NCBI RefSeq assembly: GCF_003725535.1
Contig: NZ_RJSF01000043.1
Coordinates: 181,796-245,795, forward strand
Reading direction: 5' to 3'
From: Nocardioides pocheonensis
GTDB taxonomy: Bacteria; Actinomycetota; Actinomycetes; Propionibacteriales; Nocardioidaceae
Length of the DNA stretch: 64,000 nucleotides
This document shows, piece after piece, positions 20,000 through 50,028 of this stretch. How positions within the stretch are numbered: the first letter of the stretch is position 1; every line of letters begins with the position of its first letter. Made by a program: the position numbers and the translations under genes. The notes below the pieces were generated by a model, which saw only the letters and a list, made by a program, of their open reading frames with translations, searched no databases and was not told the origin of the DNA.

Positions 20000-22036
20000 T
20001 CATGCAGTCACCGCCATTCGGTCGGGGGAGACCACGCCGACCGACCGCACCGTCGCGGCGCCGACGAGCTCCTGGTAGGACAGCACCGGAAGCTGGTGGA
20101 ACGAGGGCCGCAGCAGCCGCCGCAGGGCGGAGCGGATCTGCGGTGAGCAGACCAGCACGGGGTGGTGGCCGGAGTTCTCGGCGGACGTGAGCAGCCCGGA
20201 GACCTGGTGCAGCACGGACTGGCCGAGCTCGGGGTCCAGGGCGATCACGGTGCCGTGCTCGGTCGGACGCAGGTCCTCGAGCATGCGCTGCTCGAGCTGC
20301 GGGTCGAGGCTCATCACGTGGATCGCGCCGTCGGCGACGTACGGCGCGACGATCGCCGGGCCGAGCGCCTGGCGAGCGGCGTCGACGAGCGAGTCGAGGT
20401 CCTTGGTGACGGCCGCCCGCAGCGAGAGCGCCTCGTAGATCCGGACCAGGTCGCGCACCGAGACGCCCTCGTCGAGCAGCGACTGGAGGACGCGCTGCAC
20501 CTCGCCGAGGCTCAGTGCGGCCGGGGTCAGCTCGTCCACGACGACAGGGTGGGTCCGCTTCACGACGTCGGTGAGCATCCGCACGTCCTCGCGGCCGAGG
20601 AGCCGCGCGGCGTGCGTGGTGACCACCTCGGCGAGGTGCGTGGTGATCACGGAGGCACGGTCGACGACCGTCGCCCCGCCCATCTCGGCCTGGTTGCGCA
20701 GCTCGGCAGGGATCCACTTCGCCTCGAGGCCGAAGACCGGCTCCCGGGTGGGCTGGCCGGGCAGCGAGCCGAGGAAGTCGCCGATCGCGAGCACCGTGCC
20801 CGGGGGCGCCTCGCCGCGGGCGACCTCGATGCCGAACAGCTTGATCGCGTAGGTGCGCAGCGGCAGGTCCAGGTTGTCGCGGGTCCGCACGGGCGGCACC
20901 ACGATGCCGATGTCGGAGGCCACCTTGCGGCGCAGGGCCTTGACCCGGTCGAGCAGGTCGCCCCCGGCGCTCGGGTCGACCAGGTCGATGATGTCCGCGG
21001 ACAGCTCGAGGCCGAGTGGGTCCACGCGGATCTCAGCGGCGAGGATCTCCGGCGAGTCCGGCGACGGCAGTGCCAGCGCAGCGGCCTCGGACAGCTCCGG
21101 CTCGACCTCGTCGGCGACCCGCGTCGAGGCGAGCAGCACGATGCCACCGGCGATGATGAACGGGATCTTGGGCAGGCCCGGGATCAGGCACAGCGCCAGC
21201 GCGGCGAAGCCGGCCACGCGCATCGGCACCCGGTTGCTGGTCATCTGGCGCAGGATGTCCGAGCCCATGTCCTCCTCGCCGGTGGACCGCGTCACGATGA
21301 GGCCGGTCGCGACCGAGAGCAGCAGGGCGGGGATCTGGGAGACGAGGCCGTCACCGATCGACAGCAGGCTGTACGTCGACACCGCGTCGCCGAAGGGCAT
21401 GTGCTTCTGCGCGACGCCGACGCCGAAGCCGCCGACCAGGTTCACCAGCGTGATCACGATCGCGGCGATCGCGTCGCCCTTCACGAACTTCGAGGCACCG
21501 TCCATCGCCCCGTAGAAGTCCGCCTCGGCGTGCACCTCGCGCCGACGGCGGCGTGCCTCCTCCTCGTCGATCAGCCCGGAGTTCAGGTCGGCGTCGATCG
21601 CCATCTGCTTGCCGGGCATCGCGTCCAGGGTGAACCGCGCGCCGACCTCGGCGACCCGGCCGGCACCGTTGGTGATGACCACGAACTGGATCACCAGCAG
21701 GATCGCGAACACGATCAGCCCGACCAGCAGCGAGCCGCCGACGACGAAGTGCCCGAAGGTGTCGATCACCTTGCCGGCGTACCCGTGCAGGAGGACGAGC
21801 CGGGTGGCGCTGACGTTGAGGGCCAGCCGGAAGAGCGTCATCACCAGGATGACCGCGGGGAACGCGGCGAAGTCCAGCGGCCGGTGGATGAACATCGCGG
21901 TGAGCAGGATCAGCAGCGCGCCGGTGATGTTGAGGGCGATGAACAGGTCGAGCAGGATCGCGGGCAGCGGGACGACCAGCATCACCACGATGAACACGAT
22001 GCCGACCGGGACGCCGAGCTGCGTCGCACGCTTCAT
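20000..22036 (-). CDS. flhA: Flagellar export gate protein FlhA
   Basis: 678 residues. The N-terminal half is a multi-helix membrane domain with the FHIPEP signature region FRLALNVSATRLVLLHGYAG and the cytoplasmic loop VAEVGARFTLDAMPGKQMAI. The C-terminal half is the soluble ring domain that docks chaperone-substrate complexes and FliI. ATG at 22034-22036 matches the usual FlhA start. Located after flhB with a 77-bp gap. With FlhB and FliPQR it forms the type III export gate at the flagellar base. Confidence 0.95.
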   Translation of the reverse strand: MKRATQLGVPVGIVFIVVMLVVPLPAILLDLFIALNITGALLILLTAMFIHRPLDFAAFPAVILVMTLFRLALNVSATRLVLLHGYAGKVIDTFGHFVVGGSLLVGLIVFAILLVIQFVVITNGAGRVAEVGARFTLDAMPGKQMAIDADLNSGLIDEEEARRRRREVHAEADFYGAMDGASKFVKGDAIAAIVITLVNLVGGFGVGVAQKHMPFGDAVSTYSLLSIGDGLVSQIPALLLSVATGLIVTRSTGEEDMGSDILRQMTSNRVPMRVAGFAALALCLIPGLPKIPFIIAGGIVLLASTRVADEVEPELSEAAALALPSPDSPEILAAEIRVDPLGLELSADIIDLVDPSAGGDLLDRVKALRRKVASDIGIVVPPVRTRDNLDLPLRTYAIKLFGIEVARGEAPPGTVLAIGDFLGSLPGQPTREPVFGLEAKWIPAELRNQAEMGGATVVDRASVITTHLAEVVTTHAARLLGREDVRMLTDVVKRTHPVVVDELTPAALSLGEVQRVLQSLLDEGVSVRDLVRIYEALSLRAAVTKDLDSLVDAARQALGPAIVAPYVADGAIHVMSLDPQLEQRMLEDLRPTEHGTVIALDPELGQSVLHQVSGLLTSAENSGHHPVLVCSPQIRSALRRLLRPSFHQLPVLSYQELVGAATVRSVGVVSPDRMAVTA

Positions 22037-22113
22037 GGGCGGTTCGACTCCGTCGAGTTGCGGGGCGCGCCGTCCGTGGCGTGGGGTGACGGCCGTCCTG
22101 GGCGTCGAGGTCC

Positions 22114-23259
22114 CTATCGGCCGATCGCCGGAGGACCTGAGGGCTTCGAACGCCGTCTTCCGGCCGGTACGACGCTCGGCAGCTCGCCCTGGCCACGCGG
22201 GGTGTGGTGCTCGCCGCCGTGCTGGCCCTGGGTCCGGCGGCTGATCACGAACGCGAGCACCTGGGCGACCGCGGCGAACAGCTCGGGCGGGATCTCCTGC
22301 CCCACCTTGGTCGAGCGGTAGAGCGCGCGCGCGAGGGGGACGTCGCGCACGAGCGGGACCTTCTCGTCGGTGGCGAGCTCGCGGATCTTGGCCGCGATCG
22401 CGCCGGCCCCGCGTGCGACCACCCGGGGTGCCCCGCGCGCCGGCTCGTAGCGCAGGGCCACCGCGACGTGCGTGGGGTTGACCAGCACCACGTCGGCGGT
22501 CGGCACGTCGGCCATCATCCGGTTGCGTGCGGCGGCCAGCTGGCGCGACCGGATCGCGCTCTTGACCATCGGGTCGCCCTCGGACTGCTTGTGCTCCTGC
22601 TTGACCTCTTCCTTGCTCATCCGGGTCTGCTTGCCGACCCGGCGCCGTTGCATGGCGTAGTCGGCCGCGGCCATGCCCAGCCCGACGAACGCGATGTTGC
22701 GGACCAGGCCGAGCGCCCGGCCGCGCACGGTGTCGAGCACGGTCTCGACCGGCACCAGGCCGCCGATCAGCGGCATCACCGACCGGATCGTGGCGTAGAC
22801 GAGGAGCGCGACGAACGCGCTCTTCAGCAGCATCTTGGCGCCCTCCCACAGGGCGTGCGGCCCGAAGATCCGCTTGGCTCCCTTGATCGGGTCGAGCTTG
22901 CTGAGCTTGGGCTTGAGCGACTTGGTGGCGAAGTACAGGCCGCCCTGGGCGAGCGCCGAGCCGACCCCGATCACCATGATCGAGCAGCCGAGGATCACGA
23001 GCGCGTAGATGATGTGCTGGCCGCCCTGGCCGAGCAGGCCCAGGGCCCGTTCGGGCGTCGCCCGGTCGCCGAGGCTCAGGCAGGTCACCATCAGCTGCTG
23101 CAGCGACCCGAGCTCCCGGGAGAGCAGCGTCGGCGCCGCGGCACCGACGACGAGCAGGGACGCCCAGCCGCCGAGCTCCTGGGTGCGCGGGACCTGTCCC
23201 TCCTTGCGCGACTCCTTGCGGCGCCGGGCGGTGGGCTTCTCGGTCTTCTCCGAACTCAT
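22114..23259 (-). CDS. flhB: Flagellar export switch protein FlhB
   Basis: 381 residues. The N-terminus SSEKTEKPTARRRKESRKEG is the FlhB hallmark; four transmembrane segments follow. The cytoplasmic domain carries the autocleavage motif NPTH in VLVNPTHVAVALRYEP, where self-cleavage switches export from hook to filament substrates. The C-terminal 40 residues (QHGGEHHTPRGQG onward) are a basic tail longer than usual. ATG at 23257-23259 is chosen; longer frames only add unrelated residues. Confidence 0.94.
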   Translation of the reverse strand: MSSEKTEKPTARRRKESRKEGQVPRTQELGGWASLLVVGAAAPTLLSRELGSLQQLMVTCLSLGDRATPERALGLLGQGGQHIIYALVILGCSIMVIGVGSALAQGGLYFATKSLKPKLSKLDPIKGAKRIFGPHALWEGAKMLLKSAFVALLVYATIRSVMPLIGGLVPVETVLDTVRGRALGLVRNIAFVGLGMAAADYAMQRRRVGKQTRMSKEEVKQEHKQSEGDPMVKSAIRSRQLAAARNRMMADVPTADVVLVNPTHVAVALRYEPARGAPRVVARGAGAIAAKIRELATDEKVPLVRDVPLARALYRSTKVGQEIPPELFAAVAQVLAFVISRRTQGQHGGEHHTPRGQGELPSVVPAGRRRSKPSGPPAIGR

Positions 23260-29105: not shown

Positions 29106-29875
29106 CAGGCCGCCTCGACCTCGGCGCGCTCCCGCGAGGGGAGCAGCGACGTGAGCTTCTGGGCGATGATGCGCGGGTTCGAACCGGCCTGGATCGCCGC
29201 GACTCCCTCGATCGCGAGCTCCATCCGGTCGCACTCGAGCTGTCCGAGGCGCTTGAGCCGGCTGCTCAGCGGCAGCCAGAGCACGTTGGCCGAGGTGACG
29301 CCCCACAGGGTGGCGACGAACGCCCCGGCGATCAGCGGCCCGAGCTCGTCGGGGGTGGTGAGGTTCTCCAGCACGTGCACCAGGCCCATGACCGTGCCGA
29401 TGATGCCGATCGTGGGTGCGTAGGCGCCGGCGTCGGCGAAGAACTTCGCGGCCTGGCGGTCCTCGCCGCGCTTGGCGTGCACCTCGGCCTCGAGGATGTC
29501 GCGCAGCTCCTCGGGGTCGGTGCCGTCGATCGCCATCGTGACGCCCTTGACCAGGAAGGGGTCGTCGATCGTGGTCAGGGTCTCCTCCAGCGCGAGCAGG
29601 CCCTCGCGGCGGGCGCGCTCGGCGAGCGTGACGATCTCGGGGATCATCGCGGAGGCCGGCTCGACCTTGCCCGTGAAGGCGCGCACCATCGACCCGACGA
29701 TGTTCTTCGCGTCGCTCATGGTGCCACCGGCGATGCTGACCAGGATCGTGGTGCCGAAGACGAGCAGCAGCGGCGGTCCGAGGATGAGGCTGGAGGGGTT
29801 GCCGCCTTCGAGGACGTTGGCGGCGATGACGACCGCGAAGCCGCCGGCGATGCCGATTGCGGGTGCGAGGTCCAT
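29105..29875 (-). CDS. motA: Flagellar stator protein MotA
   Basis: 256 residues with four transmembrane segments. The pattern APAIGIAGGFAVVIAANVLE, then the cytoplasmic loop ARREGLLALEETLTTIDDPF and the helices YAPTIGIIGTVMGLVHVLEN and GPLIAGAFVATLWGVTSANV is typical of proton-type MotA. ATG at 29873-29875 overlaps the flbD stop. Forms stators with MotB. Confidence 0.94.
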   Translation of the reverse strand: MDLAPAIGIAGGFAVVIAANVLEGGNPSSLILGPPLLLVFGTTILVSIAGGTMSDAKNIVGSMVRAFTGKVEPASAMIPEIVTLAERARREGLLALEETLTTIDDPFLVKGVTMAIDGTDPEELRDILEAEVHAKRGEDRQAAKFFADAGAYAPTIGIIGTVMGLVHVLENLTTPDELGPLIAGAFVATLWGVTSANVLWLPLSSRLKRLGQLECDRMELAIEGVAAIQAGSNPRIIAQKLTSLLPSRERAEVEAA

Positions 29876-30180
29876 CAGCACTCCCCGTGGGGACGAGCCA
29901 GCGGGACGAGGTTGGAGCGCTCGGACGACGCGTGCTCGGGCTCGTTGCCGCGTGCGCTCCTCAGCGGCGGGGGCGGTGCCTCGGCGATCTGGGAGCCGAA
30001 GGCGACCACCTGGCTGCGGTAGTCGCGGACCGCGTCGACGATGGTCTCCAGCGACTCCGAGACCACGTACTTCTTGCCGTCGATCAGGGTGATCACGGTG
30101 TCAGGCGTGCAGTCGATGCGCTCGATCAGGTCGGAGTTCAGCACGAACGCCGATCCCGAGAGCCGCGTGAGCGTGATCAT
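29875..30180 (-). CDS. flbD: FlbD family flagellar protein
   Basis: 101 residues. The N-terminal 60 residues (MITLTRLSGSAFVLNSDLIE, ERIDCTPDTVITLIDGKKYV) match the small FlbD family found before motA in Gram-positive flagellar operons (not the Caulobacter NtrC-type FlbD). A Pro/Ser-rich tail follows. Function is not well defined. ATG at 30178-30180 has an AAGGAAGG ribosome binding site that lies within a predicted CsrA target region. Confidence 0.88.
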   Translation of the reverse strand: MITLTRLSGSAFVLNSDLIERIDCTPDTVITLIDGKKYVVSESLETIVDAVRDYRSQVVAFGSQIAEAPPPPLRSARGNEPEHASSERSNLVPLARPHGEC

Positions 30181-30187
30181 GTGCGCA

Positions 30188-30224
30188 CCTTCCTTGTGCC
30201 TGGAACCCGGGCCGTCCATGGCCC
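30188..30224 (-). promoter_or_regulatory. CsrA-type target in the flbD leader
   Basis: The leader RNA can form GGGCC-AUGGAC-GGCCC (30209-30224), a 5-bp stem with GGA in a six-base loop. The ribosome binding site AAGGAAGG (30188-30195) follows. A GGA hexaloop plus a GGA-containing binding site is the classic CsrA target arrangement. Confidence 0.55.
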
Positions 30225-30235: not shown

Positions 30236-30262
30236 AGATCGGCTGCCTGTCGCCGTACTTGA
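30236..30262 (-). promoter_or_regulatory. Sigma-28-like promoter for flbD-motAB-fliL
   Basis: On the minus strand TCAA, 15 nt, GCCGATCT closely fits the FliA consensus (TAAA-N15-GCCGATAA). It lies between the flgE terminator hairpin and the flbD start, and predicts a leader of about 50 nt. Confidence 0.75.
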
Positions 30263-30328
30263 GCGGTTGGGGCGAAGCGCCGGGAGCAGGTGCTTCCGGT
30301 CCGGTCACGCCCGGACGCGCCGAAGCGC

Positions 30329-39201: not shown

Positions 39202-39542
39202 CAGACCTGCATCCGCATGATCTCGTTGAACGCGTCGACGGCCTTGTTGCGGACCGCGACGGTCAGCTGCGTCGTGACGTTCGCCTCGGTGGCCGCGATC
39301 GTGTAGTCGTGGATCGCGTTGAGGTCACCGGTCGCCGCCTTCACCGCCAGCTGGTCGCTGGTGTCCTGCACCCGCTCCAGCTTGTCGAGCCCGTCGAGCA
39401 CCATGCTGCCGAACGCCTTGCCGGTGCCGGTGACGTCGCTGGTGCCCGTCGAGAGACTGGTGGTGTCCGTGGTGCCGACCTGTGGAGCGACGTACGGCGT
39501 GAAGCCGGAGGCCCCGATGCCTGCGATCCCTGAGATACTCAT
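39201..39542 (-). CDS. fliE: Flagellar hook-basal body protein FliE
   Basis: 113 residues. The C-terminal half is typical FliE ([40 protein letters not shown]). It links the MS ring to the rod. The N-terminal half is Thr/Ser rich. Overlaps flgC by 4 bp. Confidence 0.93.
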
Positions 39543-39931
39543 GCCCGTCCGATCTGGAGTGCGGAGCTGTAGGTGTCCTGTGCGTCCTTGGTGACCTGCA
39601 CCGAGGCCTGGAAGCCGCGCTGGGCCATGACCAGCTGGCTCATCTCGCTGGCGAGGTCGATCTCGGGCATCCGCACGTTGCCCTGCGCGTCGGCGACCGC
39701 GTTCTCCGGGTCGTTGACGACCCGTCCCTGCGGGTCGGAGTAGGCGATGCCGCCGACGTCGACGCCACCGTCCGGGCGGGCCTTCGCCATGACCATCTGG
39801 GCCTGGAAGGCGTTGCCGCTCGTCGGCTGCGCGGTGTTGATGTTCGCGATGTTGTTGGCCAGCGCGTCGAGCCAGGTCTGGTGGAAGCCGAGGCTCGTGT
39901 TCGCGATCCTCAGCATGTCGAAGGCGCCCAT
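39539..39931 (-). CDS. flgC: Flagellar rod protein FlgC
   Basis: 130 residues. [15 protein letters not shown] is the N-terminal rod motif and [20 protein letters not shown] the C-terminal one; [20 protein letters not shown] lies between. Forms the proximal rod with FlgB. The start overlaps the flgB stop by one base. Confidence 0.95.
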
Positions 39932-40296
39932 CAGAACGGCCCTGCTGCGGTCTTGACGAGGTTGTACCGGTCGTTCACCGCGCGGGTGAGGATCTGGTAC
40001 TGGAACTGGCTCTGGACCGCGGCCATCGTCTCCTTGCGGAGGTCGACGTTGTTGCCGTTCGCCCCGACGGGGGTGTCGGTGGGCGACGTGGTGGCCTGGA
40101 TGCTGTCGACGCCGTTCTCGAAGCTGCCGTCGCTGATCGCGGCCTTCAGCTGCGTCTCGAAGTCGACGCTGGACGCGCGGAACCCCGGGGTGTCGACGTT
40201 GGCGATGTTGTCGGCGATCACCCGCTGACGCAGGGACACGCCGTCAAGGGCCGACGCCAGGACCTGGCTGACCGCATCGGACACGGCGAAGGACAA
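39931..40296 (-). CDS. flgB: Flagellar rod protein FlgB
   Basis: 121 residues with the rod motif [20 protein letters not shown] and a typical C-terminal coiled-coil [20 protein letters not shown]. First gene of the rod/ring operon. It begins with TTG at 40294-40296 six bases after GGAGG; no ATG or GTG fits. The ribosome binding site is part of a possible CsrA target. Confidence 0.92.
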
Positions 40297-40302
40297 GGCG
40301 AG

Positions 40303-40339
40303 CCTCCGGGAAGCAAGAGGGTGGCGCCGGTCCTTCGGC
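40303..40339 (-). promoter_or_regulatory. CsrA-type target in the flgB leader
   Basis: GCCG-AAGGAC-CGGC (40326-40339) folds as a short stem with GGA in a six-base loop, and CGGAGG at the ribosome binding site (40303-40308) carries a second GGA. The AAGGAC loop is close to the CsrA consensus ARGGAU. The stem is only 4 bp, so this is the weakest of the three leader sites. Confidence 0.45.
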
Positions 40340-40368
40340 AGCAGGTGAGCGTTCCGTGCTCGATGAGT

Positions 40369-40395
40369 TGTTCGGCTTCAGGCGGGCCGTCCTGA
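40369..40395 (-). promoter_or_regulatory. Sigma-28-like promoter for the flgB operon
   Basis: On the minus strand TCAG, 15 nt, GCCGAACA. Transcription would begin near 40362, giving a leader of about 65 nt before the TTG of flgB. Confidence 0.65.
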
Positions 40396-40437
40396 GGCAA
40401 ACGCGGTGGTCGGGACGTTCGGCCCCAACGATCTGTC

Positions 40438-40917
40438 CTAACGGACGAGCACGACCGACAGTCGACCCGGGCCGTAGCCGCCGACCTCGACGGCCAGGTC
40501 CTCCCGGCGGCCCAGGGTCAGCGCCTTGGCGAGCACGTCCGGCGGCAGCGGTACGCCGATGTGGTGCGCGTCGTAGAGGCGGAGATGGTCGGCGCCCTCC
40601 ACGTTGAACAGGGAGGCGGCGATGTTGAGCACCTCGTAGACGTTCTCGCGCAGGGTGTCGTTGAGCACGCCCTCCTCGATCGCGGCGTCGGCGCCCGCGG
40701 CGGGGACGAGGCCGATCGCGGCGCCGGCGCGGGCCGAGAGTGGGAGGTCGAACGCGACGATCGCGGTGACCTGCAGGCGGTCGTCGACGTAGACGCCGAC
40801 CGTGCACGGGTTCTTCGGGGTCGGCGCCAGCGGGGCGCTCGGGGAGAGCGTGACCTCCCGGTCGAGCAGGTCGGTGAGGAGGTCGCGGATCTCCTTGGGG
40901 ACGGGGAGGTGCGACAT
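40438..40917 (-). CDS. CheX/CheC-like chemotaxis phosphatase
   Basis: 159 residues. The segment ENVYEVLNIAASLFN has the E-x-x-N catalytic motif of CheX/CheC phosphatases in a helix at about residue 90, and the fold pattern (strand-rich N-half with VGVYVDDRLQVTAIVAFDLP) agrees. These proteins dephosphorylate CheY-P. It starts one base after the cheY stop, which strongly supports the call. The family is divergent, so identity is inferred from motif and neighbourhood. Confidence 0.65.
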   Translation of the reverse strand: MSHLPVPKEIRDLLTDLLDREVTLSPSAPLAPTPKNPCTVGVYVDDRLQVTAIVAFDLPLSARAGAAIGLVPAAGADAAIEEGVLNDTLRENVYEVLNIAASLFNVEGADHLRLYDAHHIGVPLPPDVLAKALTLGRREDLAVEVGGYGPGRLSVVLVR

Positions 40918-40918
40918 C

Positions 40919-41284
40919 TCAGCCCTTCAGGACGGGAGCGAGCGCCTCGTCGAAGGCCTCGGGCGTGAACGGCTTGGCGATCAGGAACAGTGCGCCGCCG
41001 GCCGATGCCCGCGCGCGCATGTCCGGCGAGCCCTCGGAGGTGACGAACCCGAACGGCACGGCGGAGCCCGACGAACGCAGGGCCGCGAGCAGGTCGATGC
41101 CGTTCATCTCGGGCATGTTCCAGTCCGAGAGGACCAGGTCCGGTGACTCGGCGTGCACCAGGTCGAGCGCCTGGCGGCCGTTCTCGGCCTCGACGATGTC
41201 GTGGCCGGCGTACCCCGCCTGGCGCAGCGTGCGGATCACGATCTGGCGCATGACGCGGCTGTCGTCGGCGACGAGGATCTTCAT
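40919..41284 (-). CDS. CheY-like response regulator
   Basis: A 121-residue stand-alone receiver. Acidic pocket DD (ADDSRVMRQ), phosphorylated Asp in VLSDWNMPEMNG, Thr in FVTSEGSP and Lys in LIAKPFTPEAF are all present. It would bind the motor switch or export components. No CheA or receptor gene occurs in the window. The ATG at 41282-41284 is preceded by AAGGAA, with a sigma-28-like promoter about 100 bp upstream. Confidence 0.9.
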   Translation of the reverse strand: MKILVADDSRVMRQIVIRTLRQAGYAGHDIVEAENGRQALDLVHAESPDLVLSDWNMPEMNGIDLLAALRSSGSAVPFGFVTSEGSPDMRARASAGGALFLIAKPFTPEAFDEALAPVLKG

Positions 41285-41387
41285 GGTTCGTTCCTTAAGG
41301 GCAGTGGAGGAGCGGAGGTCCACCCCCTTGCGGCGCCCCGTGCCCGGCACGGAGCCGCCGCTCGGTGGGGAGGTCCTGACGTGGTTC

Positions 41388-41414
41388 TGATCGGTCACGG
41401 TCGGCCGATCCTGA
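41388..41414 (-). promoter_or_regulatory. Sigma-28-like promoter for cheY-cheX
   Basis: On the minus strand TCAG, 15 nt, ACCGATCA. It lies between the fliT-like gene and cheY. Confidence 0.6.
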
Positions 41415-41448
41415 GCGGATTGGTGGCGCGTCGGAGTCAGTGTCGGGG

Positions 41449-41775
41449 TCAGGCGTCGACGTCGAGGTACACCGGTGCCGCCGGCGCCTGGCCGGTGGCC
41501 TCGGTCACCCGGTCCCCGTAGGCGATCTGCCGCTGCGCGGCCGCGAGCGAGTGGCGGAGCAGCTCGGTCGCCCGGTCCTGGCGGTCGAGCAGCTCCTGGG
41601 CGCGCACGACCAGGTCGGAGGGCATCTGGCCGGGGATCGACGGCGGGGTCCAGGGCTCGTTGGGCAGGGCGCTCAGGCCCTTGAGGACCCGCTCGACGCG
41701 GAGGACGTCGAGCTCGAGCCGGTCGAGCTCCGCCTCCCAGATCGCCCGGACGCAGCTCTCGTTCACGGCGCTCAC
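41449..41775 (-). CDS. FliT-like flagellar protein (by position)
   Basis: 108 residues, mostly helical (WEAELDRLELDVLRVERVLK, LVVRAQELLDRQDRATELLR). No clear family signature. It follows fliS with a GTGA overlap, the place where the FliD chaperone FliT or a similar small chaperone is usually encoded. Function is therefore inferred from neighbourhood only. Confidence 0.65.
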   Translation of the reverse strand: MSAVNESCVRAIWEAELDRLELDVLRVERVLKGLSALPNEPWTPPSIPGQMPSDLVVRAQELLDRQDRATELLRHSLAAAQRQIAYGDRVTEATGQAPAAPVYLDVDA

Positions 41776-42161
41776 GCGCTCTGCTCGGTCGCGCACTGCA
41801 GCGCCGCCTGTCGCCAGGTCTCGCAGAGGTCGGTCACGAGGGTGAGCACCTCGTCGGTGATCGAGGCGTCCTTGCGGATGTTGGCCATCACGAGCTGCCG
41901 GTGCAGGAAGCTGTAGAGCGCGGCGAGCTCGTAGCCGCCCTTGAACTCCTCGGGCCGCAGGCTGCTGGCCAGCTCGAGGAGGATGTCCTGCGCGTGGGTG
42001 AGGTGCTTGTGCGTCTCCTCCACGTCGCCGCCGCGCTGGGCCTCGAGACCGCGCCGTACGTCGAGCACGAGGCGGTCGAACAGCATCACCAGCAGCCGCG
42101 CGGGGCTGGCGGTGGCGATCGACGCGTCGAGGTACGCGGCGCGGGCGTTGGGCTTCATCAT
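41772..42161 (-). CDS. fliS: Flagellin export chaperone FliS
   Basis: 129 residues. AYLDASIATASPARLLVMLF and the helical bundle pattern DRLVLDVRRGLEAQRGGDVE, SLYSFLHRQL-like AALYSFLHRQLVMANIRKD identify FliS, which keeps flagellin soluble until export. Two adjacent ATGs are possible starts. It follows fliD by 13 bp. Confidence 0.92.
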   Translation of the reverse strand: MMKPNARAAYLDASIATASPARLLVMLFDRLVLDVRRGLEAQRGGDVEETHKHLTHAQDILLELASSLRPEEFKGGYELAALYSFLHRQLVMANIRKDASITDEVLTLVTDLCETWRQAALQCATEQSA

Positions 42162-42174
42162 GTGGGTGCCTTCC

Positions 42175-43506
42175 TTAGCTTCCCGACTTGAGTGATGAGA
42201 GCTGTCCGGACAGCCAGCTGGACTGGCTGTTCATCTGGCTGAGTGCGGTTTCGAGTGCGGTGAACTGGCGCTGCAAGGACTCCTGCCGCAGCGCCAGACG
42301 CGTGTCCCACTCGGCGATGCTGTCCTGCATCCGCTTGATCTCGGAGTTGCGGCCCGTGATGGAGGTGGTGATGGTCCCGGTGAACGGGTCGCTGGCGCGC
42401 TTGCCGGCGGCCTGGACCCGCGCGGCGAAACCGTCGGTGGCGCCGGTGGTGAACTTCGCCGCCACGCCGGCGGGGTCGGCGGCGTACGCGGTCTTGAACG
42501 CCGCCTCGTCGAAGGTCAGCTTGCCGAACTTGTCGAGCTGGATGCCCACGCTGGCCAGGGAGGTGCCGTCGGTGGGGTACACGGTGTTCAGCAGGTCCGA
42601 GCGGACGGCACGCACACCGCTGTCGCCCGCCAGGGGACCCGACGTGTTGGTGGACGCGTCGTACGCCGTGAGGCTGTCGATCTTGCTGAGTGCGTCGTTG
42701 ATCGCGTCGACGATTCCCTTGACCTTCGCGGTCATGCCCGCGGTGTCCTGCTGCGCGTCGAGGTTCACCACGGTGCCGCTCGTCACGGTGGACCCGAGGC
42801 TGATCGTCAGCCCGTTCGCCACGTCGGAGAACGTGTTCGTCGAGGAGTGCAGGACGTCGGTGCCGATCGTGATCTCGGCGTCCTGGCCGGCGGTGACCAC
42901 CGCGCCGCCGAGCAGGTCGGAGCCGTCGAGGTTCTTGAGCGTGAAGTCCGAGGCCGCGCCGGTCGTCGACGCCGTGACCTGGAGCCGGTAGGTGCCGTCG
43001 TCGAGGCGCACGGTGCTGGCCTTCACGCCGGTGCCGGAGCCGTTCAGGGCGTTCACCAGGCCCTGGAGCGAGCCGTCACCGGTGTCCAGGTCCATCGTGG
43101 TGCCGTCGAGCCGGTCGAGCGTGACGTGGGTCGAGCCGGTGGTGACGGTGGCGGTGAGGGCGGCGGTGCTGGTGAAGGACAGCTGGTGGGCGCGGGCGGT
43201 GTGGCCGACGGTGAAGGTCAGCGGGCCGGGGACGGCCGCAGTGCCGGCGGTCGCGGTGACGAGGGTGCTCGAGCTGGTCACCGTGATCGGGTTCCACGCG
43301 CCCGGGTCGGCCAGGTCGCCCGCGCTGCTGGTGAGTGCCGCGAACTTGCTGTTCAGGTCCTGCAGGGACTTCAGGTCGGTCTGCGCCGTGCCGAGCTGGG
43401 TCTTGATCCGGGTCTGGCTCTGCGCCTCGACCTGCATCAGCTGGGAGATGATCGTGGCCGTGTCGAGGCCGCTGACCAGTCCGCTCACGCTGGTGGTGCC
43501 GGCCAT
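42175..43506 (-). CDS. fliD: Flagellar filament cap protein FliD
   Basis: 443 residues. N-terminal ASSTVSGLVSGLDTATIISQ-type start (VSGLVSGLDTATIISQLMQV) and the C-terminal heptad region (SEIKRMQDSIAEWDTRLALR, RQFTALETALSQMNSQSSWL) are typical. Caps the filament and promotes flagellin folding. It begins 57 bp downstream of the fliC terminator, with an AAGGAGAGAGG ribosome binding site and no sigma-28-like box. Confidence 0.93.
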   Translation of the reverse strand: MAGTTSVSGLVSGLDTATIISQLMQVEAQSQTRIKTQLGTAQTDLKSLQDLNSKFAALTSSAGDLADPGAWNPITVTSSSTLVTATAGTAAVPGPLTFTVGHTARAHQLSFTSTAALTATVTTGSTHVTLDRLDGTTMDLDTGDGSLQGLVNALNGSGTGVKASTVRLDDGTYRLQVTASTTGAASDFTLKNLDGSDLLGGAVVTAGQDAEITIGTDVLHSSTNTFSDVANGLTISLGSTVTSGTVVNLDAQQDTAGMTAKVKGIVDAINDALSKIDSLTAYDASTNTSGPLAGDSGVRAVRSDLLNTVYPTDGTSLASVGIQLDKFGKLTFDEAAFKTAYAADPAGVAAKFTTGATDGFAARVQAAGKRASDPFTGTITTSITGRNSEIKRMQDSIAEWDTRLALRQESLQRQFTALETALSQMNSQSSWLSGQLSSLKSGS

Positions 43507-43525
43507 CCTGGGTCCTCTCTCCTTG

Positions 43526-43555
43526 CTGGGTGGTACGTGAAGCCTGGGTGGTACG
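43526..43555 (-). repeat. Direct repeat in the fliD leader
   Basis: CGTACCACCCAG (minus strand) occurs at 43526-43537 and 43544-43555, spaced 18 bp, between the fliC terminator and fliD. It might be a protein-binding pair or a simple duplication. Confidence 0.6.
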
Positions 43556-43562
43556 AAAAGAG

Positions 43563-43606
43563 GGTCCGGGCGAGGGCGAGTCTGGGACTCTGCCCTCGCC
43601 CGGACC
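43563..43606 (-). terminator. Terminator of fliC
   Basis: GGTCCGGGCGAGGGC and its exact complement (43563-43577 and 43592-43606) form a perfect 15-bp stem, with a further inner GAGTC/GACTC pairing, followed on the minus strand by CTCTTTTC. It starts 32 bp after the fliC stop. Confidence 0.9.
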
Positions 43607-43637
43607 GTGTGCTGTGTGACTAGTCGCCGGTGAGCGA

Positions 43638-44462
43638 TCAGCCGCGGAGCAGCTGCAGCACGCCCTGCGGGCCCTGGTTGGCCTGGGCGAGCATCGCGGT
43701 ACCGGCCTGCGACAGGATGTTGGCGCGGGTGAAGTTCACCATCTCCGACGCCATGTCGGTGTCACGGATCCGGCTCTCGGAGGCCGACAGGTTCTCCACG
43801 GCCACGTTGAGGTTGTTGATCTTGTGCTCGAGGCGGTTCTGCACCGCACCGAGACCGGCACGCTCGGTCGAGACCGTTCCGATCGCGGTGTCGATGTTGG
43901 CCAGAGCCGTCTGGGCGTTGGCAGCGGTCTTGATGTCGCCGACGCCGCCGGTGATCGTGGCCGCCTTCATGTCACCGATCGACACGGTGAGCGTGTCGCC
44001 GGCGTTGGCACCGACCTGGAAGTCCTTGTTGCTGAAGCTTCCGTCGAGCAGCTTGGTGCCGTTGAAGCTGGTCTTGTTGGCGATGTCGTCGAGCTCGGAG
44101 GCGAGGGCCTGGTACTCCTTGTCGGCCTTCGTCTTGTCGGTGTTGCTCAGCGCGCCGTCGTTGGAGGCCTGGACCGCCAGGTCACGCATGCGCTGCAGGA
44201 TCGAGTGCGTCTCGGTGAGTGCGCCCTCAGCGGTCTGCACGACGGAGACACCGTCCTGCGCGTTGCGAACCGCGACCTTGAGGCCACCGACCTGCGAGCG
44301 CAGGCCCTCGGAGATCGCCAGACCGGCGGCGTCGTCCGCGGCCCGGTTGATCCGGAAACCGCTGGACAGCTTCTCCAGCGACTTCGACAGCTGGCCCTGG
44401 GTGACCGACAGGTTGCGGTACGAGTTCAGGGCGTCGATGTTCTGGTTGATGCGAAGACTCAT
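43638..44462 (-). CDS. fliC: Flagellin
   Basis: 274 residues, a minimal flagellin made of the D0/D1 core with little variable region. N-terminus SLRINQNIDALNSYRNLSVT and SGFRINRAADDAAGLAISEG; C-terminus VNFTRANILSQAGTAMLAQA and a final LLRG. Exported with FliS and polymerised into the filament. ATG at 44460-44462 follows AGGAAGGA. Regulation: its own sigma-28-like promoter and a CsrA-type leader. Confidence 0.96.
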   Translation of the reverse strand: MSLRINQNIDALNSYRNLSVTQGQLSKSLEKLSSGFRINRAADDAAGLAISEGLRSQVGGLKVAVRNAQDGVSVVQTAEGALTETHSILQRMRDLAVQASNDGALSNTDKTKADKEYQALASELDDIANKTSFNGTKLLDGSFSNKDFQVGANAGDTLTVSIGDMKAATITGGVGDIKTAANAQTALANIDTAIGTVSTERAGLGAVQNRLEHKINNLNVAVENLSASESRIRDTDMASEMVNFTRANILSQAGTAMLAQANQGPQGVLQLLRG

Positions 44463-44468
44463 GATGGT

Positions 44469-44516
44469 TCCTTCCTGGATGTGTGAGTCACGTGCTGGAG
44501 CCCTTCCTTGGGCTCC
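44469..44516 (-). promoter_or_regulatory. CsrA-type target in the fliC leader
   Basis: GGAGCCC-AAGGAA-GGGCUCC (44497-44516) is a perfect 7-bp stem with GGA in a six-base loop. About 20 nt further on, the ribosome binding site AGGAAGGA (44469-44476) has more GGA motifs. The arrangement mirrors the two CsrA sites known in the Bacillus hag leader. Confidence 0.75.
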
Positions 44517-44525
44517 GTGCCGTAC

Positions 44526-44552
44526 TCATCGGCGGTACGACAACGTGCTTGA
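44526..44552 (-). promoter_or_regulatory. Sigma-28-like promoter of fliC
   Basis: On the minus strand TCAA, 15 nt, GCCGATGA: two changes in the twelve defined bases of the FliA consensus. It gives a leader of about 55-60 nt that contains the CsrA-type hairpin. Confidence 0.8.
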
Positions 44553-44593
44553 GAGGTTTCGCCCGGCTTTTTGGCCGGCTTCCCCGGGACCGG

Positions 44594-45433
44594 TCAGGCG
44601 GTCTCGTCGAGGGCCGACAGGCCGAGCGGCCGGCGTACCGACGCGGCGTGACGGGCGGCGACGGCGGCGAAGTACGCGTCGCGGCGACGGGCGGCCGAAC
44701 CCTGCGGCCGGGCGTGCGGCGTGAGCTGGCCGGGGTCGAGCTCGTGGTTGAGCGCGTCGCGGAGCAGCACGAGCGCCTCGGCCCGCATCTGGGAGACGCG
44801 GGACTCCGTCACTCCGAGCTCGGCGGCGATCTCCGCCATCGGGCGCTCTTCGAGGAAGTAGTCGGAGATGACGATGCGCAGGCGGTCGGGCAGCTCGGCG
44901 ACGGCCTCGACCAGGTAGGTGAGCCGCTCGCGGTGCTCCACCATCTGCTCCGGCGTGGGCCCGTGGGCCGGGAGCAGGTCGTCGAGCGAGGCGTCCTGCG
45001 CACCCTGGAGGGAGAGCACCTGGGCGCGGGCGATGTCCTCGTCGTTCTGGGCGATCTCCGCGAGCGTCATGCCGGCCGCGTCCGCGACCTCCTGGGTGCT
45101 GGGGGTCCGGCCGAGGATCGAGGACAGCTGGGCGCGGGTCGCGTCGAGGTCCCGGGCGCGCCGCCGGACCGAGCGGGAGGCCCAGTCGATGCCGCGGAGC
45201 TCGTCGAGGATCGCGCCCCGCACGCGGGTGGCGGCGTACCGGGCGAACGGGACGCCGCGCTCGGCGTCGAAGGACTTGCTGGCCTGGACGAGGGCGGCGA
45301 GACCGGCCGAGGTGAGGTCGTCGCGATTGACATGGCTGGGGACCCGGCCCATGGTCTCCCGGACGATGTGGCTCACGACGGGGATGTGGCTGGTGATCAG
45401 GCTGTCCAGCTCGTGGCTCTCGGTGTCCCTCAT
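44594..45433 (-). CDS. fliA: Sigma factor FliA (sigma-28/WhiG type)
   Basis: 279 residues. Region 2 reads TSHIPVVSHIVRETMGRVPS, DDLTSAGLAALVQASKSFDA, RYAATRVRGAILDELRGIDW; region 3 SVRRRARDLDATRAQLSSIL; region 4 VISDYFLEERPMAEIAAELG and VTESRVSQMRAEALVLLR. This is the FliA/SigD/WhiG group. The ATG at 45431-45433 is chosen; upstream extension lacks family similarity. It probably drives the six flagellar promoters seen here. No flgM (anti-sigma factor) is visible in the window. Confidence 0.92.
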   Translation of the reverse strand: MRDTESHELDSLITSHIPVVSHIVRETMGRVPSHVNRDDLTSAGLAALVQASKSFDAERGVPFARYAATRVRGAILDELRGIDWASRSVRRRARDLDATRAQLSSILGRTPSTQEVADAAGMTLAEIAQNDEDIARAQVLSLQGAQDASLDDLLPAHGPTPEQMVEHRERLTYLVEAVAELPDRLRIVISDYFLEERPMAEIAAELGVTESRVSQMRAEALVLLRDALNHELDPGQLTPHARPQGSAARRRDAYFAAVAARHAASVRRPLGLSALDETA

Positions 45434-45576
45434 GGGCGTAACCTTTGGGGAGAAATGTCCGTTTTGGTAGGGCTTGTCGACAGGATTGACCGCTCGGTTC
45501 GGCAGGTCGGGACCAAGGGCCCGATCGGCCATGGCCCGTTGGGATCACACGGGGGCGAAATCGGTTGCGAAAACCC

Positions 45577-45603
45577 TTCAAGACCGCTTCGCCCTGCCGA
45601 TGG
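45577..45603 (+). promoter_or_regulatory. Sigma-28-like promoter for flgN-flgK-flgL-fliW-csrA
   Basis: TTCAAG then GCCGATGG. With TCAA the spacer is 14 nt; with TTCA it is 15. It lies 47 bp upstream of the flgN ATG. Confidence 0.6.
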
Positions 45604-45649
45604 ACAAGGTCAGGACTCCGCTCGGGAGGCCGTCGACGAAGGGTCAATC

Positions 45650-46129
45650 ATGGAGAAGCTGTCACAGATCCTGTGGCGGGAACGAGAGCTGCTCGAGACC
45701 TTGCTGTTCAAGCTCGAGGAGGAGCAGCTGGTGCTTGCCGCCGGCCGCACCCGCTGGCTCGCGCGCTCCGCGCGCGAGGTGGAGAACGTGCTGGAGACGA
45801 TCCGGGAGACCGAGATCCTGCGTGCCGTCGCCGCCGAGGAGGCCGCGGCCGTCTTCGGTCTGGGCCCGAACCCGAGCCTGCGAGCACTCGCCGAGGCGGC
45901 CGACGAGCCCTGGCAGAGCCTGCTGCTGGACCACTACGAGGCGTTCACCACGATCACCCACGAGATCACGTCGCTGGCCGACGCGAACCGCGAGCTGATC
46001 ACGACCGGCTACCGCTCCGCCCGGGAGACGCTGATGACCCTCGGTGAGGGCACCGAGTCCTACGCCGCCGACGGCTCGGCGGTCGCCGTGTCGCAGGCCC
46101 GTCGTCCGATGGTCGACTGGAGCCTGTGA
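45650..46129 (+). CDS. flgN: Flagellar chaperone FlgN
   Basis: 159 residues, helical, with EKLSQILWRERELLETLLFK at the N-terminus and ITSLADANRELITTGYRSAR towards the end, the FlgN pattern. It chaperones the hook-filament junction proteins FlgK and FlgL, which are the next two genes. ATG at 45650; one base separates it from flgK. Confidence 0.87.
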   Translation: MEKLSQILWRERELLETLLFKLEEEQLVLAAGRTRWLARSAREVENVLETIRETEILRAVAAEEAAAVFGLGPNPSLRALAEAADEPWQSLLLDHYEAFTTITHEITSLADANRELITTGYRSARETLMTLGEGTESYAADGSAVAVSQARRPMVDWSL

Positions 46130-46130
46130 G

Positions 46131-47525
46131 ATGACCGGTTCCTTCTCCTCGCTGAACACTGCGCTCTCGGCGCTGCGTTACAACCGCGTGGCGATGGACG
46201 TGGCGAGCGGGAACATCGCCAACGTCGGGACCGAGGGCTACGCCCGGCGCCGCGTCAACGGGCAGGCCGTCGGTGCGCCGACACGCCCCGCGATGTGGTC
46301 CCGGTACGACGGCGGCGGAGACGGGGTCACCGCGGCCGGGATCGACCGCATGACCGACGCCCTGCTCGACGTGCGCGCCCGTCGTGAGCACGGCAACCAG
46401 AGCTACCTCGACGTCCGCCAGTCGGTCCTCGAGCGGGTCGAGAGCGGCATCGGCGAGCCCGGCGACAACGGTGTCGCCGCGGCGATCGCCGACTTCCGCT
46501 CCGCGTGGCACGACCTCGCCAACAACCCGGGCAGCGACGCCGCACGCTCCCAGGTGCTCGGCCGGGCGGCGACGCTGGCCGACGCGCTGCGGATCCAGTC
46601 CCGCAACATCGACGCGGAGTCCGGGGACCAGCGCGTGCGTGCGGTCGCCGACGTCGCCGAGGTCAACACGGTGGCCTCCGACCTGGCCGCCACCAACCGG
46701 AGCATCGCGATCGCCAGCCTGAACGGCGACGACGCCGGTGTGCTCCTCGACAAGCGCGACCAGCTCGCGATGCGGCTCTCCGAGCTCACCGGCTCGAAGA
46801 CCACCCAGCGGCCCGACGGCGGCTTCGACGTCACCCTCAACGGGGTCTCCCTGGTGAACGGCGCCAGTGCCGGCACGCTGCAGATCGCCTCGGGCATCAC
46901 CCCCGCGGGCGCCAGCGACGGCAACCCGATCACCTACTCCATCACCGACGCCAGCGGCACCACCGCCGTTCCTGCCGGGATGACCGGCGAGCTCGGCGGG
47001 GTCACCGACCTGCTGACCACCACGCTCCCGGCGTACTCGGTCGGGCTCGGTGCGGTCGCCCAGCAGCTGGCGGACGAGATCAACACCCAGCACCAGGCCG
47101 GGTACGACGCCGCCGGCAACCCCGGCCAGCCGTTCTTCAGCTACAACCCCGCCGACCCGGCAGGCACGATCGCCGTGGCGCTCACGACCTCGTCGCAGGT
47201 CGCGGCCTCCTCCCTGCCCGGGGGCGTGCTCGACGCGGGCAACGCCAACGCGCTCGCCACCGCGACCGGGGCCGAGGACTCCTACCAGCGGCTGATCAAC
47301 GGCTTCGGCACCGAGGTCGCCTCGGTCAAGCGCCTGGCCGCCAACCAGCAGGTGCTGACCGGTCAGGTGGACGCCTCCCGCGAGCAGCTCTCCGGGGTGA
47401 ACCTGGACGAGGAGATGGTCTCGATGATGTCCTCGCAGCGCGCGTACGAGGCCGCTTCCCGCGTGATGACCACGGTCGACTCGGTGCTCGACACCCTCAT
47501 CAACCGGACAGGACTGGTGCACTGA
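46131..47525 (+). CDS. flgK: Flagellar hook-associated protein 1 FlgK
   Basis: 464 residues. The N-terminal axial motif MDVASGNIANVGTEGYARRR and the C-terminal VNLDEEMVSMMSSQRAYEAA, ASRVMTTVDSVLDTLI are typical. First of the two hook-filament junction proteins. Its stop overlaps the flgL ATG by one base. Confidence 0.95.
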   Translation: MTGSFSSLNTALSALRYNRVAMDVASGNIANVGTEGYARRRVNGQAVGAPTRPAMWSRYDGGGDGVTAAGIDRMTDALLDVRARREHGNQSYLDVRQSVLERVESGIGEPGDNGVAAAIADFRSAWHDLANNPGSDAARSQVLGRAATLADALRIQSRNIDAESGDQRVRAVADVAEVNTVASDLAATNRSIAIASLNGDDAGVLLDKRDQLAMRLSELTGSKTTQRPDGGFDVTLNGVSLVNGASAGTLQIASGITPAGASDGNPITYSITDASGTTAVPAGMTGELGGVTDLLTTTLPAYSVGLGAVAQQLADEINTQHQAGYDAAGNPGQPFFSYNPADPAGTIAVALTTSSQVAASSLPGGVLDAGNANALATATGAEDSYQRLINGFGTEVASVKRLAANQQVLTGQVDASREQLSGVNLDEEMVSMMSSQRAYEAASRVMTTVDSVLDTLINRTGLVH

Positions 47526-48415
47526 TGGCACTCACTCGCGTGACCCAGAGCATGATGAGCAAGGGCTCGGTGGCTGCGATGCAGACCAGCCTGGCCCGCC
47601 TGGCGAAGGTCCAGGAGCAGCTGTCGACCGGTCGGGTGCTCAACCGCCCGTCCGACTCTCCGACGGACACGACGTCGGCGATGCGGATCCGCTCCTCGAT
47701 CACCGACACCCAGCAGTACGGCCGGAACGCCGAGGACGGCAACGGCTGGCTGAGCACGATCGACTCCGCCCTGACCAACGCCAACGACCAGGTGCTGCGC
47801 GCCCGCGACCTGGCCCTCCAGGGCGCGAACGACGGCATGTCCGGCCAGACGTCGCGCGACGCGCTGGCCGTCGAGGTCGACCAGATCCGCGACGGCCTGG
47901 TGAACACCGCCAACACCAGCTACCTGGGCCGGCCCGTCTTCGGCGGCATCACGGCGGGCCCGGCGGCGTACGACGCCACCGGCACGTACGTCGGCACGCC
48001 CGGCGCGGTGAACCGGACCATCGGCGAGGGCACGACCGTGCGCGTCGACGTCGACGGCAACACGGCCTTCGGGCCGGCAGGCAACTCCGTCTTCGACCAC
48101 CTCACGGCCCTGTCCGCCGCGCTGCGCTCGGGCAACCAGGCCGCGATCAGCGCCGGCATCTCCGCGCTCGAGGGTGACCGCGACCAGATCACGACCACCC
48201 AGGCCGACGTCGGCAGCCGGCAGAACCGGATCCAGTCCGCCATCCAGTCCGCCTCCGACGACGAGCTCCGGCTGAAGAACTCGCTGTCGTCGGTCGAGAA
48301 CGCCGACCTGCCGAAGACCATCGTCGACCTGCAGATGCAGCAGGTGGCGTACCAGGCCTCGCTCGGGGCGACTGCGCGTGTGATGCAGCCGAGCCTGCTG
48401 GACTTTCTGCGATGA
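47525..48415 (+). CDS. flgL: Flagellar hook-associated protein 3 FlgL
   Basis: 296 residues. Flagellin-like ends: RVTQSMMSKGSVAAMQTSLA and LSTGRVLNRPSDSPTDTTSA at the N-terminus, KTIVDLQMQQVAYQASLGAT at the C-terminus. Second junction protein. Overlaps fliW by 4 bp. Confidence 0.94.
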   Translation: MALTRVTQSMMSKGSVAAMQTSLARLAKVQEQLSTGRVLNRPSDSPTDTTSAMRIRSSITDTQQYGRNAEDGNGWLSTIDSALTNANDQVLRARDLALQGANDGMSGQTSRDALAVEVDQIRDGLVNTANTSYLGRPVFGGITAGPAAYDATGTYVGTPGAVNRTIGEGTTVRVDVDGNTAFGPAGNSVFDHLTALSAALRSGNQAAISAGISALEGDRDQITTTQADVGSRQNRIQSAIQSASDDELRLKNSLSSVENADLPKTIVDLQMQQVAYQASLGATARVMQPSLLDFLR

Positions 48416-48810
48416 TCGTGGCCGTGCCTGACATTCCGTCGATCGAGCTCGTCCATCCCCTTCCGGGATTCCCGGACATGCGCCGCTTCGCGCTCGTGCA
48501 GCTCGACGACGAGGGTGTGCTCTGCCAGCTCAGGTCGCTGGAGGACCCGTCGCTCCGCTTCCTCGTGATGCCTCCGGTGCCGTTCTTCCCCGACTACGCA
48601 CCCGAGGTCGGCGACGACGTGGTCGAGGACCTCCAGATCGACTCCGCCGAGGACGTCATCGTGCTGCTCGTGCTCAACGCGGGCGACACGCTGGACACCA
48701 CCACGGCGAACCTCATGGCACCGGTCGTCGTCAACACCGCGACCCTGCGGGCGAGCCAGGTCATCCTCGACGACCCGACCCTCCCGCTCGCCGCGCCTCT
48801 GGTGGCGTAA
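48412..48810 (+). CDS. fliW: Flagellar assembly factor FliW
   Basis: 132 residues. The FliW barrel is recognised by PLPGFPDMRRFALVQLDDEG, FLVMPPVPFFPDYAPEV and the tail VNTATLRASQVILDDPTLPL. In Bacillus, FliW binds flagellin or CsrA and so relieves CsrA repression when flagellin is low. It lies directly before csrA, the conserved pairing. ATG overlaps flgL; an in-frame GTG four codons later is possible. Confidence 0.93.
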   Translation: MIVAVPDIPSIELVHPLPGFPDMRRFALVQLDDEGVLCQLRSLEDPSLRFLVMPPVPFFPDYAPEVGDDVVEDLQIDSAEDVIVLLVLNAGDTLDTTTANLMAPVVVNTATLRASQVILDDPTLPLAAPLVA

Positions 48811-48819
48811 CCTCACTGC

Positions 48820-49068
48820 ATGCTGGTCCTCAGTCGCCGTGCCGGCGAGAGTGTCGTGATCGGTGAGGACGTGACCATCACCGTGCTCGAAGTGCGCGGC
48901 GACGTGATCCGGATCGGCATCGACGCACCGCGGTCGGTCGCGGTGCACCGCGCCGAGCTGCTCGAGCAGCTGGAGACCGTCAACCGCGAGGCGGCCTCGC
49001 CGAGCGAGGACGCCGTGCAGTCGCTGAGCGCCGCGCTGCGGTCGCGTCCCGGGAACCACGCCGGCTGA
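48820..49068 (+). CDS. csrA: Carbon storage regulator CsrA
   Basis: 82 residues. MLVLSRRAGESVVIGEDVTI and VLEVRGDVIRIGIDAPRSVA match the RNA-binding beta core, including the conserved arginine near residue 44. The C-terminal tail (from about 62) is longer than the about 60-residue enteric form, as in FliW-dependent CsrA proteins. It likely blocks translation of fliC and perhaps flbD and flgB by binding the GGA hairpins in their leaders. Confidence 0.95.
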   Translation: MLVLSRRAGESVVIGEDVTITVLEVRGDVIRIGIDAPRSVAVHRAELLEQLETVNREAASPSEDAVQSLSAALRSRPGNHAG

Positions 49069-49080
49069 GCGCGCACCTCA

Positions 49081-49165
49081 CCAGGTTTCGGCACGCTCCG
49101 TCGCGGCCTCGTCCCTCGGCCGCGGTCGCTGCTACGCCGTACTGAGCCTGCCGAAGTGAACCACC
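49081..49165. repeat. REP-like repeat between csrA and the response regulator
   Basis: A degenerate copy of the repeat family: AGGTTTCGGCACGCTCC at the left, a central CGGCCTCGTCCCTCGGCCG, and TGAGCCTGCCGAAGTGAACC at the right as the inverted end. It lies at a convergent junction. Confidence 0.7.
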
Positions 49166-49200
49166 ATCGAGCAGGCGCGCTGACGCGCGTCTGCTCAGCG

Positions 49201-49833: not shown

Positions 49834-50028
49834 GCACGATTTTTACCGTGTCTGGCAACCCCCTACGTCCGAAATGCCCAAATGTTCCGATGAATCGGGC
49901 AAACGGTATAGACCGGGTCAGGTCGCTGCAGGATCAACTCCGCAAACCGGGCGTAACCTACCGGTATCCACCTCGTTGGACCGGATGCAACTCACCGGAG
50001 GGGTGGGCGAGCAGGGGAGAGGGTCATC

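Follow-up and report, generated by a model that had tools for sequence, protein, structure and literature searches.

In Bacillus subtilis, the first CsrA site in the leader of the flagellin gene hag lies in a hairpin, and fliW and csrA are located within a flagellar cluster. The hag leader carries two CsrA sites, one of them over the ribosome-binding site, and CsrA is antagonized by FliW (PMC7652899). A comparable arrangement has been described for Campylobacter jejuni flaA, whose short leader presents two GGA loops, SL1 and SL2, of which SL2 covers the ribosome-binding site; transcription is by sigma-28, compensatory changes are seen among relatives, FliW is again the antagonist, and flaG, flaB, flgI and others are further CsrA targets (PMC4894983). 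In the phylum of the organism studied here, flagellin was predicted in 2008 as a CsrA target in Kineococcus radiotolerans, with csrA in a motility island; the same report pointed to a csrA next to flagellar genes in Nocardioides sp. JS614 as well (PMC2587704).

The original prediction for the present locus held that FliW-CsrA control has been little described in actinobacteria. As an idea, CsrA control of flagellin has been in print since that 2008 report, at the ribosome-binding site only, which qualifies this part; the conserved hairpin described below, and the same layout before flbD and, less clearly, flhA, were not found in print. Actinobacteria are placed among the possible users of FliW in a 2015 survey (PMC4682653), CsrA and FliW appear a single time, in a gene list, in the accessible text of a 2023 study of actinobacterial flagella (PMC10746217), fliW and csrA are among the genes changed in an Actinosynnema phoP mutant (PMC9019756), and csrA is named as a starvation gene in Modestobacter (PMC8602919). 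The full-text literature searched, screened by titles and abstract openings and with most subscription journals outside it, yielded no description of the hairpin, or of CsrA sites ahead of flbD or flhA, for actinobacteria.

The window analyzed here is a 64,000-nucleotide stretch of Nocardioides pocheonensis DNA. On its minus strand, a gene for a flagellin of 274 aa (43638..44462; Flagellin_N 2.7e-45, Flagellin_C 6.8e-31) is preceded by a leader in which we observed, from 5' to 3', a promoter, a hairpin, the motif GACTCA, the ribosome-binding site AGGAAGGA and the ATG (44462-44460). The hairpin, GGAGCCC-AAGGAA-GGGCTCC (44497..44516, minus strand; loop 44504-44509), is a putative high-affinity CsrA site (BS1). 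It has seven perfect pairs and a hexaloop with GGA, as had been predicted, and it was present in the predicted folds of 91, 111 and 149 nt. Also in line with the original prediction, the ribosome-binding site (44469..44476, minus strand) holds two GGA motifs, making it a putative second site (BS2), and begins after a gap of 20 nt from the hairpin, with 32 nt from GGA to GGA. A GGA in the ribosome-binding site would by itself mean little, unlike the hairpin. Between the two lies GACTCA (44484..44489, minus strand), the complement of TGAGTC (44456-44461) over the start codon, so placed that the ribosome-binding site is enclosed between them. When 4227 Rfam models were compared with positions 38000-50000, no match was obtained at E values up to 1, and assignment of the leader to a known RNA family was therefore rejected.

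Directly upstream of the flagellin gene is a sigma factor gene (44594..45433, minus strand) with Sigma70 regions 2, 3 and 4, probably that of the flagellar sigma-28, for which FliA would be the presumptive name. A sigma-28-type promoter, CTCA-N17-CCGAT (44528..44553, minus strand), was recognized by the recurrence of the motif upstream of the leaders of relatives, the pattern itself having been obtained by comparing them. CCGA[TA] was found upstream in 102 of 133 distinct flagellin leaders; 84 of the 102 combine it with a CTCA-like box, and in 70 leaders CCGA[TA] lay 17-19 nt before the loop. Taken alone the motif is weak, since with one mismatch allowed the window has 25 matches where 16.75 are expected. 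No sigma-70 promoter was found by consensus in 44300-45600. Sigma-28 transcripts usually start some 7 nt past the -10 box, and the transcript start is accordingly predicted at about 44517-44521, within a few bases of the hairpin; because the promoter ends just upstream, the predicted mRNA begins near the hairpin. A start below the hairpin, which the original prediction had named as evidence against its reading, is thus not what the promoter indicates, as far as the sequence tells, the start being a prediction.

Being GC-rich and placed between two genes of the same strand, the hairpin might be read as a transcription terminator, or as an attenuator, separating the sigma gene from flagellin. 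However, no T-run follows it, the terminator scan was empty over 44300-45600, and the hairpin, whose loop type is kept, lies downstream of where the promoter is predicted and 20 nt short of the ribosome-binding site. This reading is hardly credible and was rejected, and we return to the hairpin as a candidate CsrA site.

The proteins required by such a switch are encoded nearby. Genes for fliW (48412..48810, plus strand; PF02623 5.5e-33; PDB 5dmb_A, E 9.4e-20) and csrA (48820..49068, plus strand; PF02599 6.9e-24) lie 9 nt apart and about 4 kb from the flagellin gene, so that the predicted presence of both in the same cluster (plus strand, 48412-49068) was borne out. Both products match chains of PDB entry 5dmb, which contains both proteins. 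Only one csrA was found in the source genome; in another genome (G318), two copies above the cut-off, one of them weaker, were seen on separate contigs. Roles of N55 and V51 of CsrA have been described, N55 being needed for FliW binding in Campylobacter and, per the same paper, in Bacillus (PMC7829508). The CsrA of the window has 82 aa and carries L4, R44 and N55, that is, the FliW contact residue together with the C-terminal extension that marks CsrA of FliW systems. N55, which the search did not demand, was present in 36/36 CsrA sequences (31 distinct, one from Alkalibacillus); R44 was present in 36/36 and L4 in 35/36, parts of these two motifs being demanded by the search pattern itself. 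At position 51, V in C. jejuni, 27 sequences have L, eight have V and one has I.

Presence of csrA and of flagellin agreed in 34 of the 36 genus and family genomes. The two disagreements were a draft with csrA alone (G021) and a contaminated draft with flagellin alone (G036), in which the hairpin was present and csrA and fliW were not found. Among genomes chosen for a flagellin-like match (plus G021), csrA was detected in 49/53 and fliW in 65/69; outside the class, 53 of 55 genomes chosen in the same manner had csrA. One genome (G115) combined a weak flagellin-like match and fliW, with csrA not found.

To set the hairpin against chance, 159 flagellin leaders were collected: that of the window, 18 from the genus and family, 60 from the class and 80 from named loci. 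Two Firmicutes (L192, L195) were among the named loci and hence among the windows counted below, and class genomes with only FlgL-like or fragment matches were left out (e.g., G065, G081, G111, G115, G271 and G399). Dropping G290 and G336, which had no located start, and then 14 duplicates left 143 distinct leader windows, each reaching from 85 to 12 nt before the start, in which a hairpin was called if it had an ANGGAN hexaloop and a stability of -8 kcal/mol or better. Such a hairpin was found in 131 of the 143, the window's own included; these come from related sequences and so are not 131 independent events, with stems that differ widely. In 40 sets of dinucleotide shuffles, the mean was 1.35 and the maximum 3; the opposite strand gave 2, and eight other loop motifs gave 1-3 each. 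The background density, measured on the 80 named loci on both strands with the leaders included, was 0.016 ANGGAN hairpins per 73-nt window. All 18 of the genus and family leaders fetched carry the hairpin. Its occurrence in flagellin leaders is not chance.

The invariance of the loop A and of GGA was imposed by the search itself; the closing pair was C-G in 125 of 128 distinct hairpins, all picked for the ANGGAN loop. With no loop requirement, the most stable hairpin had a GGA loop in 109/143 windows, exactly ANGGAN in 70, and in 34/143 a different hairpin was the most stable. Since A can pair with T, loops such as ACGGAT also admit a tetraloop fold.

The stem was examined in an alignment of 57 leaders. 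Pairing was found in 81.0% of cells, against 56.2% with shuffled partners and 27-44% when slid, and the covariation score was 0.517 against 0.145. Changes on both sides were seen in eight of nine stem pairs. In a separate comparison, stem pairs 2-8 each exceeded all 500 shuffles. For example, G033 has GCGGCTC/GAGCCGC where the window has GGAGCCC/GGGCTCC, a different stem with the same loop type. The ANGGAN hexaloop therefore sits on a stem maintained by compensatory change, and the likeness to the Bacillus hag leader that had been proposed for this locus is supported by a layout that is widely conserved among flagellated members of the class.

A second stem may exist over the start codon. GACTCA/TGAGTC, which encloses the ribosome-binding site, showed up in the fold predictions for 91 and 111 nt and was absent from that for 149 nt. 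Among 127 distinct leaders, GACTC stood in the spacer of 22 of the 24 genes whose start codon is followed by AGTC, and the 58 with GGTC after the start had GACCC in 29 cases, GACCT in 10, GACTC in 4 and none in 15; leaders with other starts mostly had no matching spacer complement. The mean longest complement was 4.53; swapping the start regions among leaders 200 times never gave more than 4.33. This covarying switch, GACTC-ATGAGTC versus GACCC/GACCT-GGTC (39/58), supports a possible start-codon stem, but it may reflect few events on the tree. The stem is similar to SL2 of Campylobacter flaA (PMC4894983).

Exceptions to the conservation of the hairpin were also recorded. It was missing at -8 kcal/mol from four leaders of genomes with csrA (G096_L063, G188_L071, G123_L107 and G254_L116) and from the named loci L143, L170 and L176; G393_L109, at -7.7 kcal/mol, and L192, from a Lachnospiraceae, at -7.1 kcal/mol, were near misses. 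Several leaders without the hairpin belong to extra copies whose sister copy has it, as in G096, G188 and G254 and, by record name, in L143 beside L157 and L170 beside L163. Script-picked starts were doubtful or wrong for G400_L113 and G412_L073 and, in the set from outside the class, for L205 and L224. In that set, the upstream hairpin was found in 24/60 flagellin leaders, and in many of the remaining ones a GGA hairpin covers the ribosome-binding site; neither was seen in 14/60 (gap-free stems of at least 3 pairs), with csrA in 10 of the 11 source genomes. Because of these two counts, the strong claim is confined to the class. In two further families of the phylum, f53 (L204, L206, L226, L232, L234, L236) and f59 (L227-L230, L233, L235, L237), an ANGGAN hairpin can form at the ribosome-binding site itself, with no upstream one.

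Two genomes of family f20, G299 and G400, are 7.6-9.2 Mb in size, lack csrA, fliW and FlbD and have distant flagellins. The hairpin is missing from all three of their flagellin leaders, including one whose start is uncertain, a contrast that involves few genomes and flagellins with 33-46% identity over segments. It bears on the possibility that the hairpin is a 5'-terminal stabilizer that slows the decay of the mRNA, with the GGA loop incidental and CsrA uninvolved. Flagellin mRNA is usually abundant, and the hairpin is indeed stable and at the predicted 5' end. However, a stabilizer needs no fixed loop, whereas ANGGAN was found in 131/143 windows against 1-3 for eight loops of like design, and the flagellins of the csrA-less genomes do without the hairpin. 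We regard a stabilizer of this kind as quite improbable and keep to the hairpin as a CsrA site.

The same layout was found before other flagellar genes of the window. A model built on the flagellin leaders gave a second match at 30178-30231, in the leader of flbD (30169-30263, minus strand), with a promoter at the same spacing. As at flagellin, this promoter is of the sigma-28 type (30238..30263, minus strand); it is followed by the hairpin GGGCC-ATGGAC-GGCCC (30209..30224, minus strand), which is in the predicted fold, and by GCAC-AAGGAAG-GTGC (30185..30199, minus strand), a stem absent from the predicted fold in whose loop the flbD ribosome-binding site may lie. The gene itself (29875..30180, minus strand; swrD type, PF06289 5.6e-27, and identified also by its neighbors) is the first of flbD-motA-motB-fliL-fliM. 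From 50 flbD leaders fetched, three with no located start were removed and some flbD genes were left out; in the resulting 47, an ANGGAN hairpin at -8 kcal/mol was present in 35, comprising 27/27 in the window's family and 8/20 outside it, against a shuffled mean of 0.65 (maximum 4) and none on the other strand.

When promoter and hairpin were searched for jointly, CTCA-N17-CCGAT-N13-24-CANGGANG gave 32 matches in 12 of 17 genomes, these being all 12 flagellated ones, and none in three flagellin-less genus-mates, in two csrA-less genomes or when reversed. In the window's genome, it matched twice, at flagellin and at flbD. A combined model, R2, pointed to a third place, 22082-22141, before flhA (20000..22036, minus strand; PF00771 1.9e-253). 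The flhA leader (22025-22141, minus strand) is looser: the model matched the sigma-28-type promoter (22116..22141, minus strand) and a first GGA hairpin with an imperfect stem and the loop CAGGAC (22088..22106, minus strand), the loop being CAGGAC or AGGAC in general. Nearer the start, C-ANGGAN-G hairpins have 3-5 pairs where seen; the one in the window, CGCC-ACGGAC-GGCG (22068..22081, minus strand), is a possible hairpin absent from the predicted fold, and another possible GGA hairpin was noted at 22044-22056. Of the 15 flagellated genomes searched with R2, seven had a match at flhA, and the FlhA N-terminus was read in all seven. At E 0.01, five of six control genomes gave no match and G009 gave one, at 0.0099. 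The matches of R2 at flagellin and flbD of the window are not independent, because the window's own leaders of both were in its training set; flhA was not.

A leader-only model, R1, was also tried for targets beyond flagellin. Its matches were weak and occurred also in csrA-less or non-flagellated genomes (best 2.1e-4, in G400), so these candidates were rejected; what is claimed for flbD and flhA derives from the promoter-plus-hairpin pattern together with R2. Since both of these contain the promoter, their lack of matches in non-flagellated genomes says little about the hairpin itself. Before flgN of G220 (L403), whose product looks like the FlgN of the window, the promoter is present and the hairpin absent; therefore, the hairpin is not merely part of this promoter.

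Some further genes were seen behind the module in other genomes. In G010 (L356), a gene for a PAS-GGDEF-EAL protein, by Pfam, is downstream of the promoter and a GGA hairpin; at L358, the gene is for a patatin-like protein, judged by eye, and on folding no hairpin formed around the matched loop. Two kinds of secreted proteins were also encountered, one at L351, L352 and L399 and the other at L362/L406, L408, L409, L410 and L400; they were grouped by eye, with no Pfam match for one of each, and at L399 a GGA hairpin is possible at the ribosome-binding site too. Among the loci compared for these matches, some script-picked starts were wrong or doubtful.

Taken with the two described systems, the leader, its covariation and its partner genes suggest that FliW-controlled CsrA very probably represses flagellin translation through a leader switch, as at Bacillus hag and Campylobacter flaA. 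CsrA binding, repression and release by FliW we infer from those two organisms. Sigma-28 would make a flagellin mRNA with the GGA hairpin as its 5' end, as the promoter predicts. A CsrA dimer would grip the hairpin loop with one RNA pocket and, 32 nt further on, the ribosome-binding-site GGA with the other, and loading of the 30S subunit would thus be blocked; pairing of GACTCA with the start codon region may contribute to holding this site shut. Flagellin in the cytoplasm would hold FliW, and free FliW would bind CsrA around N55 and release the mRNA. With flagellin titrating FliW and FliW freeing the mRNA, flagellin would be made only while it is being exported, and actinobacteria with this leader probably meter flagellar protein production as Bacillus and Campylobacter do.

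It is also conceivable that CsrA binds and mainly alters the lifetime of the mRNA, or that the abundant leader is a CsrA sponge sparing other flagellar mRNAs, with the ribosome block secondary. The flaA leader of Campylobacter antagonizes CsrA (PMC4894983), CsrA of Bacillus also restricts accumulation of the hag transcript (PMC6529632), and titration has candidates here, because other genes share the layout. The second GGA, however, overlaps the ribosome-binding site, as a direct block predicts, a weak point given that ribosome-binding sites tend to hold GGA anyway. We judge a main effect on lifetime or titration unlikely and prefer repression of flagellin translation.

Whether actinobacterial CsrA reaches beyond flagellin, as a second layer over part of the sigma-28 regulon, is evenly balanced on the present comparisons. 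The composite module, a sigma-28 promoter and then a GGA hairpin at nearly fixed distance, would act at flagellin, at flbD-motA-motB, which includes the stator genes, more loosely at flhA, for the export gate, and in some species before genes for a GGDEF-EAL protein and secreted proteins. Through FliW released as flagellin is exported, the synthesis of stator and export gate would be timed with that of the filament. This wider reading is weakened by the flhA hairpins, which are either short or outside the ANGGAN type. Should the flbD and flhA leaders also respond, an export checkpoint would control stator and export-gate genes, which would bear on the timing of filament, motor and export, and the promoter-plus-hairpin model already provides a list of candidate CsrA targets.

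If the flagellin switch is real, translation control by protein titration would extend to a large phylum, for which no earlier test was found in the literature searched, and the leader is conserved well enough for designed mutations. Compared with Bacillus hag, the stem here is GC-rich, flagellin is on the strand opposite to fliW-csrA, and other flagellar leaders have the layout. In sequence, the flagellin hexaloop fits the high-affinity RsmE/CsrA site ANGGAN with no difference seen (PMC7652899). In contrast to Campylobacter flaA, where the leader has 45 nt, the present leader is longer, and its second loop would use the start codon region (PMC4894983). The Kineococcus prediction was a 9/12 match at the ribosome-binding site, and in the accessible text of that report no upstream hairpin is named and FliW is absent (PMC2587704). 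The flagellin leader would thus belong with the known CsrA-FliW switches, and the wider promoter-plus-hairpin module would be the novel case.
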